From the NCBI GenBank assembly GCA_016928095.1, contig JAFGLL010000086.1, positions 1 to 34,160 on the forward strand: 34,160 bases of DNA, read 5' to 3'. Within the stretch, counting starts at the first letter, position 1. Each line of letters starts with the position of its first letter. This stretch comes from Thermoplasmatota archaeon (GTDB lineage Archaea; Thermoplasmatota; Penumbrarchaeia; Penumbrarchaeales; Penumbrarchaeaceae). Both the position numbers and the translations under genes were made by a program. A model generated the notes under the pieces. The model saw nothing but the letters and a program-made list of their open reading frames with translations, was not told the origin of the DNA and ran no database searches. Below are positions 28,133-34,160 of the stretch, piece by piece.

Positions 28133-31100
28133 ATGCCTCGGGTAGAGGAAACATCCTGTGAGCGATCCCTATTCGGAGAGTCATTTTCGATATTACTGAT
28201 CATCGTCGTTGTACTCTCCTGTACAGTATGTTTCACTGGACGGATCCAAGACGGCCCAAGAGCTATAGCTATCGATATATCTCCTTCCGAAAAGGATGGC
28301 AGCGATACTAGTGGTCCATCCGAGATAACCGTTTCCTCCCCCGGCGGAAGGACCACTTTCAGACTTATTCTCGGTGGTCCGAACCTCACATACGAGGTAT
28401 GGCTTGGAGGTGAGCGGCTCTTGACCGGTTCGAGATTGGGGCTCTTGCTGGGAGACGGTGACATGATCCCTTCCGGTACGGCTGAACACCTTCGGACCGT
28501 CATGAACACCGTTAAGGAGGAATACACGGTGGCATACGCCGAAGGTTCCCGTTTCGAGGATCACTACAGATATGCCCTGGTAACTCTCAGGGAGAGCCTT
28601 GGCAAGGGGAGGACCTTCGAACTGCATATCAGAGCCTACGACGAGGGTGTCGCTTTCAGGTACGTCGTTCCCGACCAGGAGGGTGTCGGGAGGACGACGA
28701 TCATGGGAGAGGCCACGACCTTCTCCTTCAACGATGACCTTCCATGTTTCGCGGAGTACGGGACGGAAGGGGAATATTCCAGGGTTCAGATCAGCAGGGT
28801 CAGACAGCAATGCGAGGTGCCTCTGGCAGTGGAACTCCCAGATGGACGCTACGTCTCTATCGGTGAAGCCGCTCTTCTGGATCATTCCAGGATGCTGCTG
28901 AAGAACGCTGGCAATGGATCCACCTCCCTTCAGGTGCAGCTCTGCTCGAGGGTTGTTCGGAACCCCGGGTTCGAGACCCCCTGGAGAGTGGTCATCGCCG
29001 GAAATGGTTCCGGGGACCTTATCGAGAACTCCCATATCCTCTATTCCCTTTGCCCGGAGAGCAAACTTAAGGATATTTCATGGATCAGACCCGGGAAGGC
29101 CTTCCGCGATTGTACCCTTACGACCAACGGTTCAAAGGCGGTGATAGATTTCTGCTCCGAGAACGGTCTCCAGTACGTCCATCTTGACGCTGGATGGTAC
29201 GGCAAGGAGTTCGATCCGGGATCTGACGCCAGTTCCGCTTCGGTCCCGGACTTGGATATACCGGAGATAGTCAGATACGGGAAGGATAAAGGGATCGGTG
29301 TCGTACTCTACGTCAACAACCGTTCATTGAGGAAGCAGCTGGACAAGGTCCTTCCGCTCTACCAGGAATGGGGAATAAAAGGTATCAAGTTCGGTTTCAT
29401 GGACGGAAGGACCCAGACCGGGATTAACTTCATTCATTATGCCGTGCAGAAAGCTGCTGAACATGAACTGTTCGTGATAATCCATGATAATTATCGCCCA
29501 ACAGGTCTCACAAGGACCTACCCTAATATCCTATCGGTAGAAGGTGTCAGGGGAAACGAGCACTTTCCGACACCTTATCACAATACTTTACTCCCGTACA
29601 CCAGGTCCGTTTGCGGTCCGATGGATTACACCCCCAGAGCGGTCCCTTACAAAGAACGCACGACATCATGCCATCAGATGGCGCTACCCTTTGTATTTTT
29701 CTCCCCAATGACCTTTTTGTACTGGTATCAGGACCCGATAGCGGTGGCAAGGTCCGGACCGTTCGAGGCCTGGCGGGATCTACCAACGGTCTGGGATGAG
29801 GTGATCTATCCCGATGACATTCCCGGAAGGTATGCTTCTGCATTGAAGAGGAATGGTGACACCTGGTTCTACGGGTTCATCAACGGACCTTCTCCCGCAA
29901 GGGCCGTGGTCGACCTTGCCCCGGTCGGGGAAGGCAGGACATTCGCGGCAACGATCTTCAAGGATGATCACGGGTCCATCGATACGAGAAGGTATCTCGT
30001 GGACAGGAACACGATCATTGACGAGCAGGTGGTTGAGGACGGTGGATCATGCGCCATGATCCGTCCCGCCACGTTGAACGACCTCCGCACCCTTAGCGGG
30101 TATCCTTCCTGGAGCAAGACCTGCACGGAGCTCACGGTGGAAGAAGACAAGGAGATGATGCTGTTCCTGTGCATGCCAGGATCGAACAGATGCAACCTCA
30201 CCTATGATGCTTGGACCGATTCCGACTTCATCTCGTTCGATCCAATGACGGGTACGGTTTCAGGCACTCCGGGAAACGATGACATAGGCAGATATCATTT
30301 CTCGGTCCTGATAAGGTACGACGGGGAACCGATAGGCAGTCTGATGTTCACGATCAATGTTCTCAACACGAACGATCCGCCAATGATAACCGAGCTTCCC
30401 AGATACATAGAGGTCATGCCTGGTGAGGAGCTTCTTGTCGAACCCAGGGCCGAGGACGTGGACCCAACATCCGACAGGTTGATCTGGGATATTGCGGGGG
30501 ATGTATCTTTCGTGAGCATAGACCCATTGACAGGAATATTGCGGGGAACCCCCACCCGCGACGATATCGGGACACATCTTATTGAAGTGAGTGTGGATGA
30601 CGGGAACGGCGGCACATGCACGAGGGAGATGATCTTTCATGTCAACGACACATCGATACAAGAGAAGGTCACGACGTTGGATCGTGTGATCTTTCTGTGC
30701 GAGGATGTCCCCTTCGAGATCGATCTGCGGGAGGAACTGATGCCCGAATGGGAAGCCCATGAAGGACTGATCATCGAGAAGATGCCCGGATTCGTCAGCA
30801 TCTTCGGAGATGGTCCCATATTTCGAGGTATCCCGACCCAGTCGGATATCGGCGTCCACGAGATCTTGATACGCATGAAGACCGAGGGTGAACCCGATGA
30901 GATCGTCCAGTTCAGGATGATCGTCATCGGGACCAACGACCCTCCGGTGTTCGTCAACTCCTCGATCTTCCTCATGACCGCTGTGGGGGAGCATATTGAC
31001 CTCGAGTTCGTTGTTGACGACGAGGACGATGCGAGAGAGGTCCTAACATGGTCCCTGTGGCCCTGCGATGATTTCTTGGCTCTGGACATGAAGGCCGGAA

Positions 31101-31546
31101 CCCTTCAGGGGACCCCGCTCTCTGACGACAAGGGGGTCCACAGGATGGTGCTCAAGGTGACCGATCCCGGGGGAGGAGTGGCAGAGATGGAAGTGACATT
31201 GCTTGTTCTGGCCGAAGGCTCCTTGCTGTCCATTTTCGATGATCGTCCGATCCTGAAACCTAACATAGGTTCTAACGCAACCGGAGTATCTTGCATTCCT
31301 TTGACCATGGTCCGGGTAAGGATAGGTTCCGGCGAGGTGGTGGCGGTCCCAATGACCGATGGGATTGAGCGACTTCTTTCCGGGAACGGGACCTCACCCG
31401 GGGTTATCGATGACAGGCCCGTGATAGAAGAGAAGAGCGATGCGTGGGAGCTTATCCTCCCTCTCTTTGTTATCTCCTTGACAATATGCCTCTTGATGGT
31501 CCTGGTCCTCAACCATTCCGGGAAAGCCCGATCGAAGAAAGGGTAG
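28133..31546 (+). CDS. GH97-family glycoside hydrolase-like enzyme with C-terminal cadherin/Ig-like repeats and a TM anchor
   Basis: N-terminal TM/signal. GH97_N-like EITVSSPGGRTTFRLILGGPNLTYEVWLGGERLLTGSRLGL. Catalytic-region landmarks YVHLDAGWYG, WGIKGIKFGFMDGRTQ, FVIIHDNYRPTGLTRTYPNILSVEGVRGNEH. C-terminal-domain-like PTVWDEVIYPDDIPGRYASALKRNGDTWFYGFING. Three putative-Ig repeats (FISFDPMTGTVSGTPGNDDIGRYHFSV..., FVSIDPLTGILRGTPTRDDIGTHLIEV..., FLALDMKAGTLQGTPLSDDKGVHRMVL...). C-terminal TM LILPLFVISLTICLLMVLVL. Confidence 0.85.
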   Translation: MPRVEETSCERSLFGESFSILLIIVVVLSCTVCFTGRIQDGPRAIAIDISPSEKDGSDTSGPSEITVSSPGGRTTFRLILGGPNLTYEVWLGGERLLTGSRLGLLLGDGDMIPSGTAEHLRTVMNTVKEEYTVAYAEGSRFEDHYRYALVTLRESLGKGRTFELHIRAYDEGVAFRYVVPDQEGVGRTTIMGEATTFSFNDDLPCFAEYGTEGEYSRVQISRVRQQCEVPLAVELPDGRYVSIGEAALLDHSRMLLKNAGNGSTSLQVQLCSRVVRNPGFETPWRVVIAGNGSGDLIENSHILYSLCPESKLKDISWIRPGKAFRDCTLTTNGSKAVIDFCSENGLQYVHLDAGWYGKEFDPGSDASSASVPDLDIPEIVRYGKDKGIGVVLYVNNRSLRKQLDKVLPLYQEWGIKGIKFGFMDGRTQTGINFIHYAVQKAAEHELFVIIHDNYRPTGLTRTYPNILSVEGVRGNEHFPTPYHNTLLPYTRSVCGPMDYTPRAVPYKERTTSCHQMALPFVFFSPMTFLYWYQDPIAVARSGPFEAWRDLPTVWDEVIYPDDIPGRYASALKRNGDTWFYGFINGPSPARAVVDLAPVGEGRTFAATIFKDDHGSIDTRRYLVDRNTIIDEQVVEDGGSCAMIRPATLNDLRTLSGYPSWSKTCTELTVEEDKEMMLFLCMPGSNRCNLTYDAWTDSDFISFDPMTGTVSGTPGNDDIGRYHFSVLIRYDGEPIGSLMFTINVLNTNDPPMITELPRYIEVMPGEELLVEPRAEDVDPTSDRLIWDIAGDVSFVSIDPLTGILRGTPTRDDIGTHLIEVSVDDGNGGTCTREMIFHVNDTSIQEKVTTLDRVIFLCEDVPFEIDLREELMPEWEAHEGLIIEKMPGFVSIFGDGPIFRGIPTQSDIGVHEILIRMKTEGEPDEIVQFRMIVIGTNDPPVFVNSSIFLMTAVGEHIDLEFVVDDEDDAREVLTWSLWPCDDFLALDMKAGTLQGTPLSDDKGVHRMVLKVTDPGGGVAEMEVTLLVLAEGSLLSIFDDRPILKPNIGSNATGVSCIPLTMVRVRIGSGEVVAVPMTDGIERLLSGNGTSPGVIDDRPVIEEKSDAWELILPLFVISLTICLLMVLVLNHSGKARSKKG

Positions 31547-31558
31547 TGGCCCTATCCT

Positions 31559-32779
31559 TTATTCGACACATAGCTCGACGATCATCTCGAGGGGAAGCAG
31601 CCCAGTTTCCACCCCGGACATCCTCGGGATGTAGTGGGCCGCCTTACCGGAATCCGTTCCGACCCTCTCGATCCCTATGCTGCGAAGCGGTGTAACGACC
31701 ATGCAGGTGTCGTTGTAGATCTCGATCCCCGCATCGATGAGCACCCCCCGTTCGTGTTCTTCCATTGCTCCAAGGATCGAACGATTGGTGTAGACGATAA
31801 TTCTCTTACCCATCTTCAGCTTCCTCCCCTTGAGGGCGCCCGACAACCGGTCGAACTCCGATATCCCGAACTGGGGACACCCGAGGACGAATATGTCAAT
31901 ATCCTTTGCAGGGGCAGGATACAATCCATCCTTAAGGTCGTCCAGCTCCTCGGGCGTAAGGGTTATCCTTTCAACGATGTGCTTATCCGTGTAGGCTTTC
32001 TGGACCAGGTCACGTTCGGGTGTCATATCCAGGATATGGAAGATGGCGTGTCCGCCCTTGGCGGCCATTGCCGCACCCAGGTGCTTCAATGATCCACGGC
32101 TCACGTCCTTCTTGATCCCTTTATAAACGGGTATGATCGAGTTGAAGTGCTTTCCGATATAGGCACCCAGCAGATCGAAATGGTGTGCCTTCATGGAGCC
32201 ATCGATCGTTACTTCCATGGAGGGCATCCTGGGTCCGTCGAGGTGCATCCCCCAGACCGGGGTCTTCCCAAGGATCGCGGATGCAAGCGCTGAGACACCG
32301 CTTTCCCGGTTGGTCCTTGCTCCGACCATGGAGTTCGCGTAGATGACAGCGTTGGATTCGCTCCAAGCGAGGTGGTCGCCCATCCTTACAGATTGAACGC
32401 TCTGCGGTGTTTCGTAAGGTATGCATGAGCAGGTGATATCGATGCCAAGCTTGGAGTACAGTTCTATTATCATAAACTGTTTTTTTGCGAAATCAGGCGG
32501 ATAGCCTATACTTTCCCAGAGTTCCAGGTCCATGCCAGCCGGGTTGAGACTGGTCGGGACCGTGACCTTGGCACCCATCCGGTTTAGTTCCTCCAATAAC
32601 CTGATGAGGGCTTCCCCCGCCGTATGATATGATACCCCAGACACATGGGCTGAAACTATTGGATAGAAACCTTCGGAACTCTCGAGGTCCCCGAGGTTTA
32701 CGAGTACCTTCATCGCGAAGGCCTTCGCCTCACCCTCGGACCCGGCCAGGATGGCTTCCTCTTCATTGGTCAGATACAT
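31559..32779 (-). CDS. Aconitase X (DUF521) catalytic domain; candidate phosphomevalonate dehydratase large subunit
   Basis: MYLTNEEEAILAGSEGEAKAFAMKVLVNLGDL; VSGVSYHTAGEALIRLLEEL; ITCSCIPYETPQSVQSVRMGDHLAWSESNAVIYANSMVGARTNRESGVSALASAILGKTPVWGMH; VFVLGCPQFGISEF-like 'DIFVLGCPQFGISEFDRL'. Confidence 0.92.
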   Translation of the reverse strand: MYLTNEEEAILAGSEGEAKAFAMKVLVNLGDLESSEGFYPIVSAHVSGVSYHTAGEALIRLLEELNRMGAKVTVPTSLNPAGMDLELWESIGYPPDFAKKQFMIIELYSKLGIDITCSCIPYETPQSVQSVRMGDHLAWSESNAVIYANSMVGARTNRESGVSALASAILGKTPVWGMHLDGPRMPSMEVTIDGSMKAHHFDLLGAYIGKHFNSIIPVYKGIKKDVSRGSLKHLGAAMAAKGGHAIFHILDMTPERDLVQKAYTDKHIVERITLTPEELDDLKDGLYPAPAKDIDIFVLGCPQFGISEFDRLSGALKGRKLKMGKRIIVYTNRSILGAMEEHERGVLIDAGIEIYNDTCMVVTPLRSIGIERVGTDSGKAAHYIPRMSGVETGLLPLEMIVELCVE

Positions 32780-32903: not shown

Positions 32904-32934
32904 CTTTGAACTATCAGGGATCGTGGGTGTTAAA

Positions 32935-33318
32935 ATGAGCGGAAGGATAACCACCGTTTCAGCAAGATTCTCTCCTGACCAGGTGGAGATGCTCGATAGG
33001 ATCCAATCGGAGTTGAACATCTCTAAGACGGATGTATTACATCTGGCGCTCGAGAACCTTGAGAAGATCGGCCTGATGCCGAGGGTGAAGAGAGTGGAGG
33101 TCCTGATATCGGCCGACTCCATGAAAAGGGCAGCAAGGCTGCATGAATATTATCAGTACGGCACTTCTCTTGATGCACTGCTTTCCGAAGCTCTCGAGCT
33201 GGGGATCCGGGAGATAAGGACAAAGCTCATGGCGGACAGGAAAGAGGATACGGAGCTTGCACGTGTCGATATGGATGCAAGGTCCATAGAGATGCAGCAG
33301 GATTCGATGACAAGGTGA
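32935..33318 (+). CDS. Ribbon-helix-helix (CopG/MetJ-Arc type) regulator; CdrS/CdrL-like by context
   Basis: MSGRITTVSARFSPDQVEMLDRIQSELNISKTDVLHLALENLEKIG has an RHH pattern (beta strand, helix, 'N-I-S-K-T-D', helix). The second part 'KRVEVLISADSMKRAARLHEYYQYGTSLDALLSEALELGIREI' resembles a second RHH. ATG 32935 is preferred to the listed GTG 32923. Confidence 0.78.
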   Translation: MSGRITTVSARFSPDQVEMLDRIQSELNISKTDVLHLALENLEKIGLMPRVKRVEVLISADSMKRAARLHEYYQYGTSLDALLSEALELGIREIRTKLMADRKEDTELARVDMDARSIEMQQDSMTR

Positions 33319-33436: not shown

Positions 33437-33631
33437 ATGCTACTGGATGAAGAGGGTCTGACGGAAAAAGCGAAAAGTGATCTGCTATACCTTGAGCAGC
33501 TGAACTCGTATGCGGAGAACACGAAGAACACTCCCGAATACATCCGTGCGATGGCGATGTACACACACGCTCTGCATGTGATAGATGAAAGGTACGGGAA
33601 CATCCAGCATCTGATATACCGGTCGAAGTGA
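33437..33631 (+). CDS. Small helical protein of unknown function (64 aa)
   Basis: ATG preceded by 'aaaaaggagggatggaaca' (SD GGAGG). Followed after 13 bp by the FtsZ-like gene. Confidence 0.55.
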   Translation: MLLDEEGLTEKAKSDLLYLEQLNSYAENTKNTPEYIRAMAMYTHALHVIDERYGNIQHLIYRSK

Positions 33632-33644
33632 GGTGGGTAGTTCC

Positions 33645-34160
33645 ATGATAGGTTCAGCCGATCCTTCCTCAAGGTCAGATAAGGTCCTGGTCATCGGGGT
33701 AGGTAGCGGCACGAGTCGTCTTATAAGGTCCGTCCACGAGACCTCGGGGCCGAACATAGACACCCTTTACATCACTACCGATGAGGAAGATATCAGGCAG
33801 ACAAGGGCCGATACCAAGTTCCTCATCGGCAGGCGTCTTTGCGGGGGTAAGGGTGCCATGGGTCTCATCGAGCTCGGTGAGCGGGCCGCGGAGGATTCAA
33901 GGCGCGACATCGAACCTTTCATGGAAGGATACAATCTCATAGTCCAGATAGGATCGCTCGGCAAGGGAACTGCCAGCGGCGCATCTCATGTGATCGCAGC
34001 GATAGGGGAAGGCCTGGGTGCAACCGTGTTGAACTTCCTCATTCTGCCATCGGCAACGCTCGAATCGATGTCTAGGACAATAGCCAACCACGCAAAGAAC
34101 AGCATGATCAAAAGGGGATTCAAGGTAGTGTCGATAGACCAGGACAGGTTCCAGGAGATC
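33645..34160 (+). CDS. 3'-truncated FtsZ/tubulin-superfamily protein with degenerate GTP-binding signature
   Basis: My translation from ATG 33645 (SD GAGGTGGG): MIGSADPSSRSDKVLVIGVGSGTSRLIRSVHETSGPNIDTLYITTDEEDIRQTRADTKFLIGRRLCGGKGAMGLIELGERAAEDSRRDIEPFMEGYNLIVQIGSLGKGTASGASHVIAAIGEGLGATVLNFLILPSATLESMSRTIANHAKNSMIKRGFKVVSIDQDRFQEI. It follows the FtsZ order: VIGVG..., NTD-like TTDEED, IG...T.G.GA.G...G..AAEES, GGGTGTG-like GKGTASG. It has no stop in the window, so the ORF track omits it. Confidence 0.8.
   Translation, partial: MIGSADPSSRSDKVLVIGVGSGTSRLIRSVHETSGPNIDTLYITTDEEDIRQTRADTKFLIGRRLCGGKGAMGLIELGERAAEDSRRDIEPFMEGYNLIVQIGSLGKGTASGASHVIAAIGEGLGATVLNFLILPSATLESMSRTIANHAKNSMIKRGFKVVSIDQDRFQEI

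Follow-up and report, generated by a model that had tools for sequence, protein, structure and literature searches.

A fast-evolved FtsZ-like protein with altered nucleotide loops at an RHH-linked, ftsZ2-type locus in a family of Thermoplasmatota

The window analysed here spans contig C10 from end to end (34,160 bases), one of 124 contigs in a 2.8 Mb genome, and it ends inside a gene for an FtsZ-like protein, here called FtsZL. An ATG-initiated frame on the forward strand (33645-34160) runs uninterrupted to the window end and supplies codons 1-172 of 351; the remainder lies on contig C22 (locus L007), with the stop codon at 611-613. The first 73 bases of C22 are an exact copy of the C10 end, and extension to the right across this overlap recovers the full gene. 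The fused reading frame of 351 codons aligns end to end with intact orthologues on single contigs, the nearest at 80% identity over 351 residues. A preliminary description of this DNA had reported an FtsZ-like open frame from 33645 to the window end that was missing from the list of open reading frames. The ATG frame and its match to a Pfam FtsZ domain (below) bear this out, and its departure from the contig at the contig's end would account for the omission. The final 87 bases of C10 (34074-34160) are identical to a contig end in G003, a second genome of the genus, and for this reason the break between C10 and C22 seems to mark a point where the assembly branched between strains that occur together. 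The FtsZL portion on C22 differs from the G003 copy (80% identity there) and may derive from a third strain. This strain branch is the sole caveat on the join. The G003 contig that carries the shared 87 bases is named k87 (isolate Zod_Metabat.266), which suggests the same metagenome for both genomes.

Two small genes precede FtsZL on the same strand, and the order RHH protein, 64-residue protein, FtsZL is kept in every member of the host family. The first gene (32935-33318, +) encodes a ribbon-helix-helix (RHH) protein, apparently with tandem RHH units, that corresponds to the RHH protein encoded beside ftsZ2 in archaea. Its frame is open from a GTG at 32923; the ATG at 32935 is favoured by the orthologues. 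The protein is divergent, with no RHH match in a Pfam search, and a single HMM of FtsZ2-linked RHH proteins failed to recover it. Profile-profile comparison aligns it, at 93% probability and E=3e-7, with tandem-RHH proteins encoded next to other FtsZ2 genes, and its first unit has a weak likeness to CopG (E=0.03). The second gene (33437-33631, +) lies directly upstream of FtsZL, with 13 bases from stop to start, and encodes a 64-residue protein (LLYLEQLNSYAENTKNTPEYIRAMAMYTHALHVIDERY) about as well conserved as FtsZL. It is confined to the host family: a domain search found no known domain in it, and outside the family there were no relatives apart from one chance-level match. In a class-level relative, G010, a 47-residue frame with a purine-rich stretch ahead of it lies between the RHH gene and FtsZ2; it has no evident homology to the 64-residue protein. 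The downstream neighbours of FtsZL are metabolic, and NUDIX and nitroreductase genes are among the neighbours of the locus. Divergent from the FtsZL operon is a gene for an aconitase X (AcnX) family protein (31559-32779, -), kept in part of the family, and beyond it lies a gene for a 1137-residue glycoside hydrolase family 97 protein with Ig-like domains (28133-31546, +), which is probably exported.

The preliminary description had assigned the protein to FtsZ by eye, an assignment that the absence of a tubulin/FtsZ fold would have contradicted. FtsZL matches the Pfam tubulin/FtsZ GTPase domain PF00091 (E=1.4e-15; 56.6-58.6 bits against a curated cut-off of 33), and the full-length protein matches FtsZ chains among PDB sequences with E values down to 4e-23. 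The nearest full-length orthologue (80% identity) was modelled with AlphaFold from an eight-sequence alignment; confidence is low (mean pLDDT 58, pTM 0.63), but strands and helices follow one another as in FtsZ. The best 50 PDB matches to this low-confidence model in Foldseek are all FtsZ (top E=1.8e-13, TM about 0.6), and the sequence matches and the model together give FtsZL the FtsZ fold. Membership in the FtsZ family proper is another matter. The score of FtsZL against the NCBIfam FtsZ equivalog TIGR00065 is 101.5 bits, under the cut-off of 295.2, and Pfam finds neither the FtsZ_C domain PF12327, which both canonical paralogues of the genome match, nor Tubulin_2 (PF13809). With the T4 and T7 signatures, the equivalog score and FtsZ_C, four marks of canonical FtsZ are missing, and FtsZL is therefore not classed as a bona fide FtsZ.

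The divergence of FtsZL can be placed by residue, in E. coli numbering, through comparison with E. coli FtsZ and 44 canonical FtsZ sequences from the phylum. Loops T1, T2, T3, T4, T6 and T7 are altered, at positions that are otherwise invariant or nearly so. The T1 loop reads GVGSGTSR (residues 18-25; 33696-33719, +), with substitutions at G20, G22 and N24; N43 of T2 is substituted as well. The T3 region GRRLCGGKGAMG (residues 62-73; 33828-33863, +) has changes at T65, L68 and G71, one of them to a new invariant lysine, K69 of FtsZL. In the T4 signature, LGKGTASGA (residues 105-113; 33957-33983, +), G106 and T110 are substituted, and the central glycine of canonical GGGTGTG is a lysine, K107. 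Further substitutions fall at N165 (T6) and at N207 and D209 (T7). Retained are G17, G19, G61, G67, G69, G105, G107, T108, G111, P134 and D212, and, given a one-residue insertion that is also seen in the PDB alignment, E140 and R144 of FtsZL line up with E138 and R142. The motifs quoted in the preliminary description (T1 GVGSGTSR, the T3 region LIGRRLCGGKGAMGLIELGERAAEDS, T4 LGKGTASGA and HVIAAIGEGLGATVLNFLILP) are all present, and its claim of altered phosphate loops is confirmed by this comparison. The T7 catalytic loop, which lies beyond the window on the C22 part, is changed as well.

The two diagnostic signatures of FtsZ are lost: GGGTG[T/S]G is replaced by GKGT[AG]SG in 8/8 orthologues, and NxDxx[D/E] by [SG][LI][TS]ISD, in which the Asn and the first Asp are lost and the second Asp is retained. 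The catalytic Asp of T7 has thus become Thr or Ser and the K+-binding Asn has become Ser or Gly. Work on Staphylococcus aureus FtsZ assigns the positioning of the catalytic water to D210 of T7, K+ binding to N208 and the holding of Mg2+ waters to N44 and D46, with R143 as an arginine-finger-like residue (PMC8936486). FtsZL lacks equivalents of D210, N208 and N44, and retains those of D46 (Asn in one sequence), R143 and D213. K69, K107, E140 and R144 are invariant in all eight sequences and D212 in the seven that reach that far. Conservation is highest in the nucleotide loops and T7, where 35/54 positions are invariant against 64/250 elsewhere (p=1e-7). Because the altered loops are so strongly conserved, the pocket has been remade and maintained, not lost; the loops are indeed changed, as the preliminary description had it, and its term 'degenerate' misleads, given this conservation and the invariant Gly-to-Lys change in T4. 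Such constancy would also suit an active GTPase that has been rewired, in which K69 and K107 provide the charge compensation otherwise due to Mg2+ and its ligands, and the second T7 Asp and R144 suffice for catalysis. The water-positioning Asp and the K+-holding Asn defined in S. aureus (PMC8936486) are both gone, however, and T2 has lost the Asn by which Mg2+ waters are held, and a rewired GTPase of this kind seems quite improbable.

FtsZL orthologues occur in all eight host-family genomes searched, at 47-91% identity. None was found elsewhere among the phylum's 243 genomes, those of the three remaining families of the class included; the best matches outside the host family, where sequences were inspected, are canonical FtsZ. 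A scan of one genome per species across 85,462 species returned seven FtsZL loci, all in MAGs labelled 'Candidatus Thermoplasmatota' or Thermoplasmata. Pairwise dN/dS among the orthologues is 0.05-0.12, which points to purifying selection across the family. The split over two contigs, and a contig end common to a second strain, might raise the thought of a functionless, decaying duplicate or an assembly chimera. That reading has next to no probability: five other genomes carry intact copies on single contigs, dN/dS is about 0.05 and the operon is conserved, and the full-length orthologues refute it. Sequencing error, which the preliminary description had named as an alternative source of the altered signature, and a pseudogene are likewise rejected by the recurrence of the signature in eight genomes and by the same dN/dS.

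Two canonical FtsZ genes, whose presence had been left as a question in the preliminary description, are found in the host genome, on C93 (followed by Spt5) and on C66. Both proteins group with the Spt5-linked FtsZ1 proteins of related genomes in a single clade, whose genes have Spt5 downstream across the phylum. None of the host-family genomes, of which four reach 90% completeness or more, yielded a canonical FtsZ2. The FtsZ1 proteins here have N-terminal extensions of 50-80 residues that open with a helix-like segment; FtsZL has about 10 residues ahead of the first strand, and a C-terminal linker with a conserved tail.

The locus suggests where FtsZL belongs. An RHH gene lies just upstream of 21 of the 23 sampled canonical non-FtsZ1 genes across the phylum, one of the two exceptions being at a contig edge, and at 20/20 loci examined in an independent iterative search. 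Published ftsZ2 loci also have RHH or parD genes, described as RHH_1 (PMC9871819), parD (PMC8178401) and CdrS (PMC7439475). Against an FtsZ2 profile the FtsZL proteins reach 131-162 bits, against an FtsZ1 profile 72-85 bits. The FtsZL branch is extremely long in trees, which were sampled without CetZ or haloarchaeal FtsZ2 sequences. When long branches are removed and E. coli FtsZ is added, FtsZL and FtsZ2 lie on one side of a branch with 100/100 support, and the AU test rejects a grouping of FtsZL with FtsZ1 (p=0.02); when every row is kept, the test does not reject that grouping (p=0.167), so the tree by itself is not decisive between FtsZ2 and FtsZ1. Profile scores and locus argue against a duplicate of FtsZ1, to which the all-row tree adds no formal rejection. 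The FtsZ2 of G010 has intact signatures, an RHH gene upstream and the tail NRWDIQLIR, which is close to the RW[DE][IV]PM of FtsZL. The best reading of these sequence comparisons is that FtsZL is the fast-evolved FtsZ2 of its lineage, at an RHH-linked ftsZ2 locus; the noncanonical FtsZ-like paralogue first proposed is upheld and can be refined to that extent.

Further tubulin-like genes occur in these genomes. A fourth protein in the host genome, on C32 (L005:922-1872, -), has 316 residues and is even more degenerate, with a T4 region of DGATGMAG and no significant Pfam match by itself. Its gene adjoins a pilin-like gene (weak DUF7311 match), and it has relatives in the family's other genera (L123, L124, L125, L127), with PGGGTGTPG. 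A fifth FtsZ-like protein of 510-530 residues, on C51 of the host genome (L121:3401-4984, -) and C110 of G009 (L122:3027-4565, -), has T1 GIGGGGSRIL, T4 ADGGTGGG and only a weak PF00091 match; it is possibly related to FtsZl1. In G011, a class-level relative, a 447-residue FtsZ on C77 (L128:3837-5177, +) keeps GGGTGTG in T4 and has DMTMNFFRGGG in the T7 region, without NxDxxD, and is thus a second, differently altered FtsZ of the class.

It is somewhat probable, judging from these sequences, that FtsZL is a hydrolysis-deficient protein of FtsZ2 descent that serves as a static or slow partner of the FtsZ1 proteins at the division ring. FtsZL would still bind a phosphate ligand, a nucleotide or something similar, since its conservation is highest in the pocket, E140 and R144 are kept and two positive charges have been gained. 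GTP would not be hydrolysed across its own T7 loop, because the residues for catalysis and K+ binding have been replaced there. We infer all steps from ligand binding onward. FtsZL may enter or border FtsZ1 filaments as a non-hydrolysing or very slow subunit and stabilise or regulate them, and the lack of hydrolysis would make it a slow or static ring partner of two dynamic FtsZ1 proteins. Its tail RW[DE][IV]PM might anchor it through SepF or another adaptor, and the RHH and 64-residue proteins of the operon could set its amount or assembly. SepF is found in 7/8 host-family genomes, including the host genome. In Haloferax and Odinarchaeota it is the FtsZ2 paralogue that SepF tethers, and OdinFtsZ1 attaches to the membrane through an N-terminal amphipathic helix (PMC12583498). 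When the FtsZL tail RWDIPMIR is set against the archaeal SepF-binding motif GID, Ile alone matches, and Pro stands at the position of the Asp. Altered GTPase activity and polymerisation, as suggested in the preliminary description, are predictions from sequence. D210N or N208L abolishes assembly of S. aureus FtsZ (PMC8936486), and since single T7 changes at the same positions block polymerisation there, FtsZL may form no filaments at all.

We infer a division role for FtsZL from locus and homology, and it is conceivable, if rather unlikely, that FtsZL works outside division in some other tubulin-superfamily task (cell shape, membrane remodelling or nucleotide sensing), as proposed for CetZ and FtsZl1. 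FtsZ-like proteins that occur beside a normal FtsZ have been argued to be unlikely to act directly in division (PMC2875224). The very long branch, the score under the equivalog cut-off, the two canonical FtsZ proteins already in the genome and the metabolic genes downstream would all agree with such a task. Yet the FtsZL locus is still of the RHH-ftsZ2 kind, the protein keeps an FtsZ-like peptide at its C-terminus, the host family has no canonical FtsZ2 to fill the role, and the vWA, kinase and OmpA-like neighbours of FtsZl1 operons are absent. In alpha/beta-tubulin the intradimer interface is locked. Should FtsZL be the static ring partner, a more speculative and distinctly doubtful extension is a ring with a similar asymmetry, composed of two hydrolysing FtsZ1 proteins and a non-hydrolysing FtsZ2-derived subunit in which two lysines, not the usual Mg2+ site, would hold the phosphate ligand and FtsZL-topped interfaces would stay locked.

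Most FtsZ-dividing archaea have two FtsZ proteins, whose dynamics are generally held to depend on FtsZ GTPase activity as a central element. In the host family a protein at the FtsZ2 locus is under strong selection yet has lost its hydrolysis residues, and there is a second FtsZ1; such a family amounts to a natural experiment that can tell which aspects of FtsZ2 work require GTP hydrolysis. One testable change is the lysine fixed in the T4 glycine loop, which is otherwise invariant, and the operon of FtsZ, RHH and small protein is a compact set of partners. In the literature searched, there was no description of an FtsZ2-lineage protein in which both signatures are substituted and T3 and T4 each carry a fixed lysine, and none of a non-hydrolysing archaeal FtsZ2.

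Among known systems, FtsZL resembles the archaeal FtsZ2 of CdrS/RHH-linked loci (Haloferax, Halobacterium and Odinarchaeota) in its upstream RHH gene, a profile closer to FtsZ2 than to FtsZ1, a short N-terminal extension without the FtsZ1-type helix and a conserved C-terminal peptide past a linker. It differs in that both GGGTG[T/S]G and NxDxx[D/E] are broken, T3 and T4 have invariant lysines, the tail is RW[DE][IV]PM in place of GID, and a 64-residue gene intervenes between the RHH gene and ftsZ. With bacterial FtsZ (E. coli, S. aureus) it shares the fold and, largely, the equivalents of D46, R143 and D213 (S. aureus numbering), and the DIP core of its tail resembles E. coli FtsZ LDIPAFLR, but the equivalents of catalytic D210 and N208 are lost; against archaeal FtsZ profiles E. 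coli FtsZ scores 280-323 bits and the window protein 74-131. Diverged FtsZ-like families have already been described (PMC2875224), and FtsZl1/Tubulin_2 and FtsZl2 (Makarova and Koonin 2010) likewise occur alongside canonical FtsZ. In contrast to these, FtsZL has no PF13809 match and a clearly alignable T6-H7-T7 region, its 351 residues leave no space for the extension of about 300 residues, and its operon is different; the missing PF13809 match and the RHH, 64-residue, NUDIX and nitroreductase neighbours, which do not form a vWA-type operon, led to rejection of an FtsZl1/Tubulin_2 identity. CetZ is also an additional archaeal tubulin-superfamily paralogue beside FtsZ; for FtsZL the locus and profile evidence, from a comparison without CetZ sequences, points to FtsZ2. 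FtsZ2 and RHH-linked loci are known, and what appears new is an FtsZ2-lineage variant with a remade pocket.
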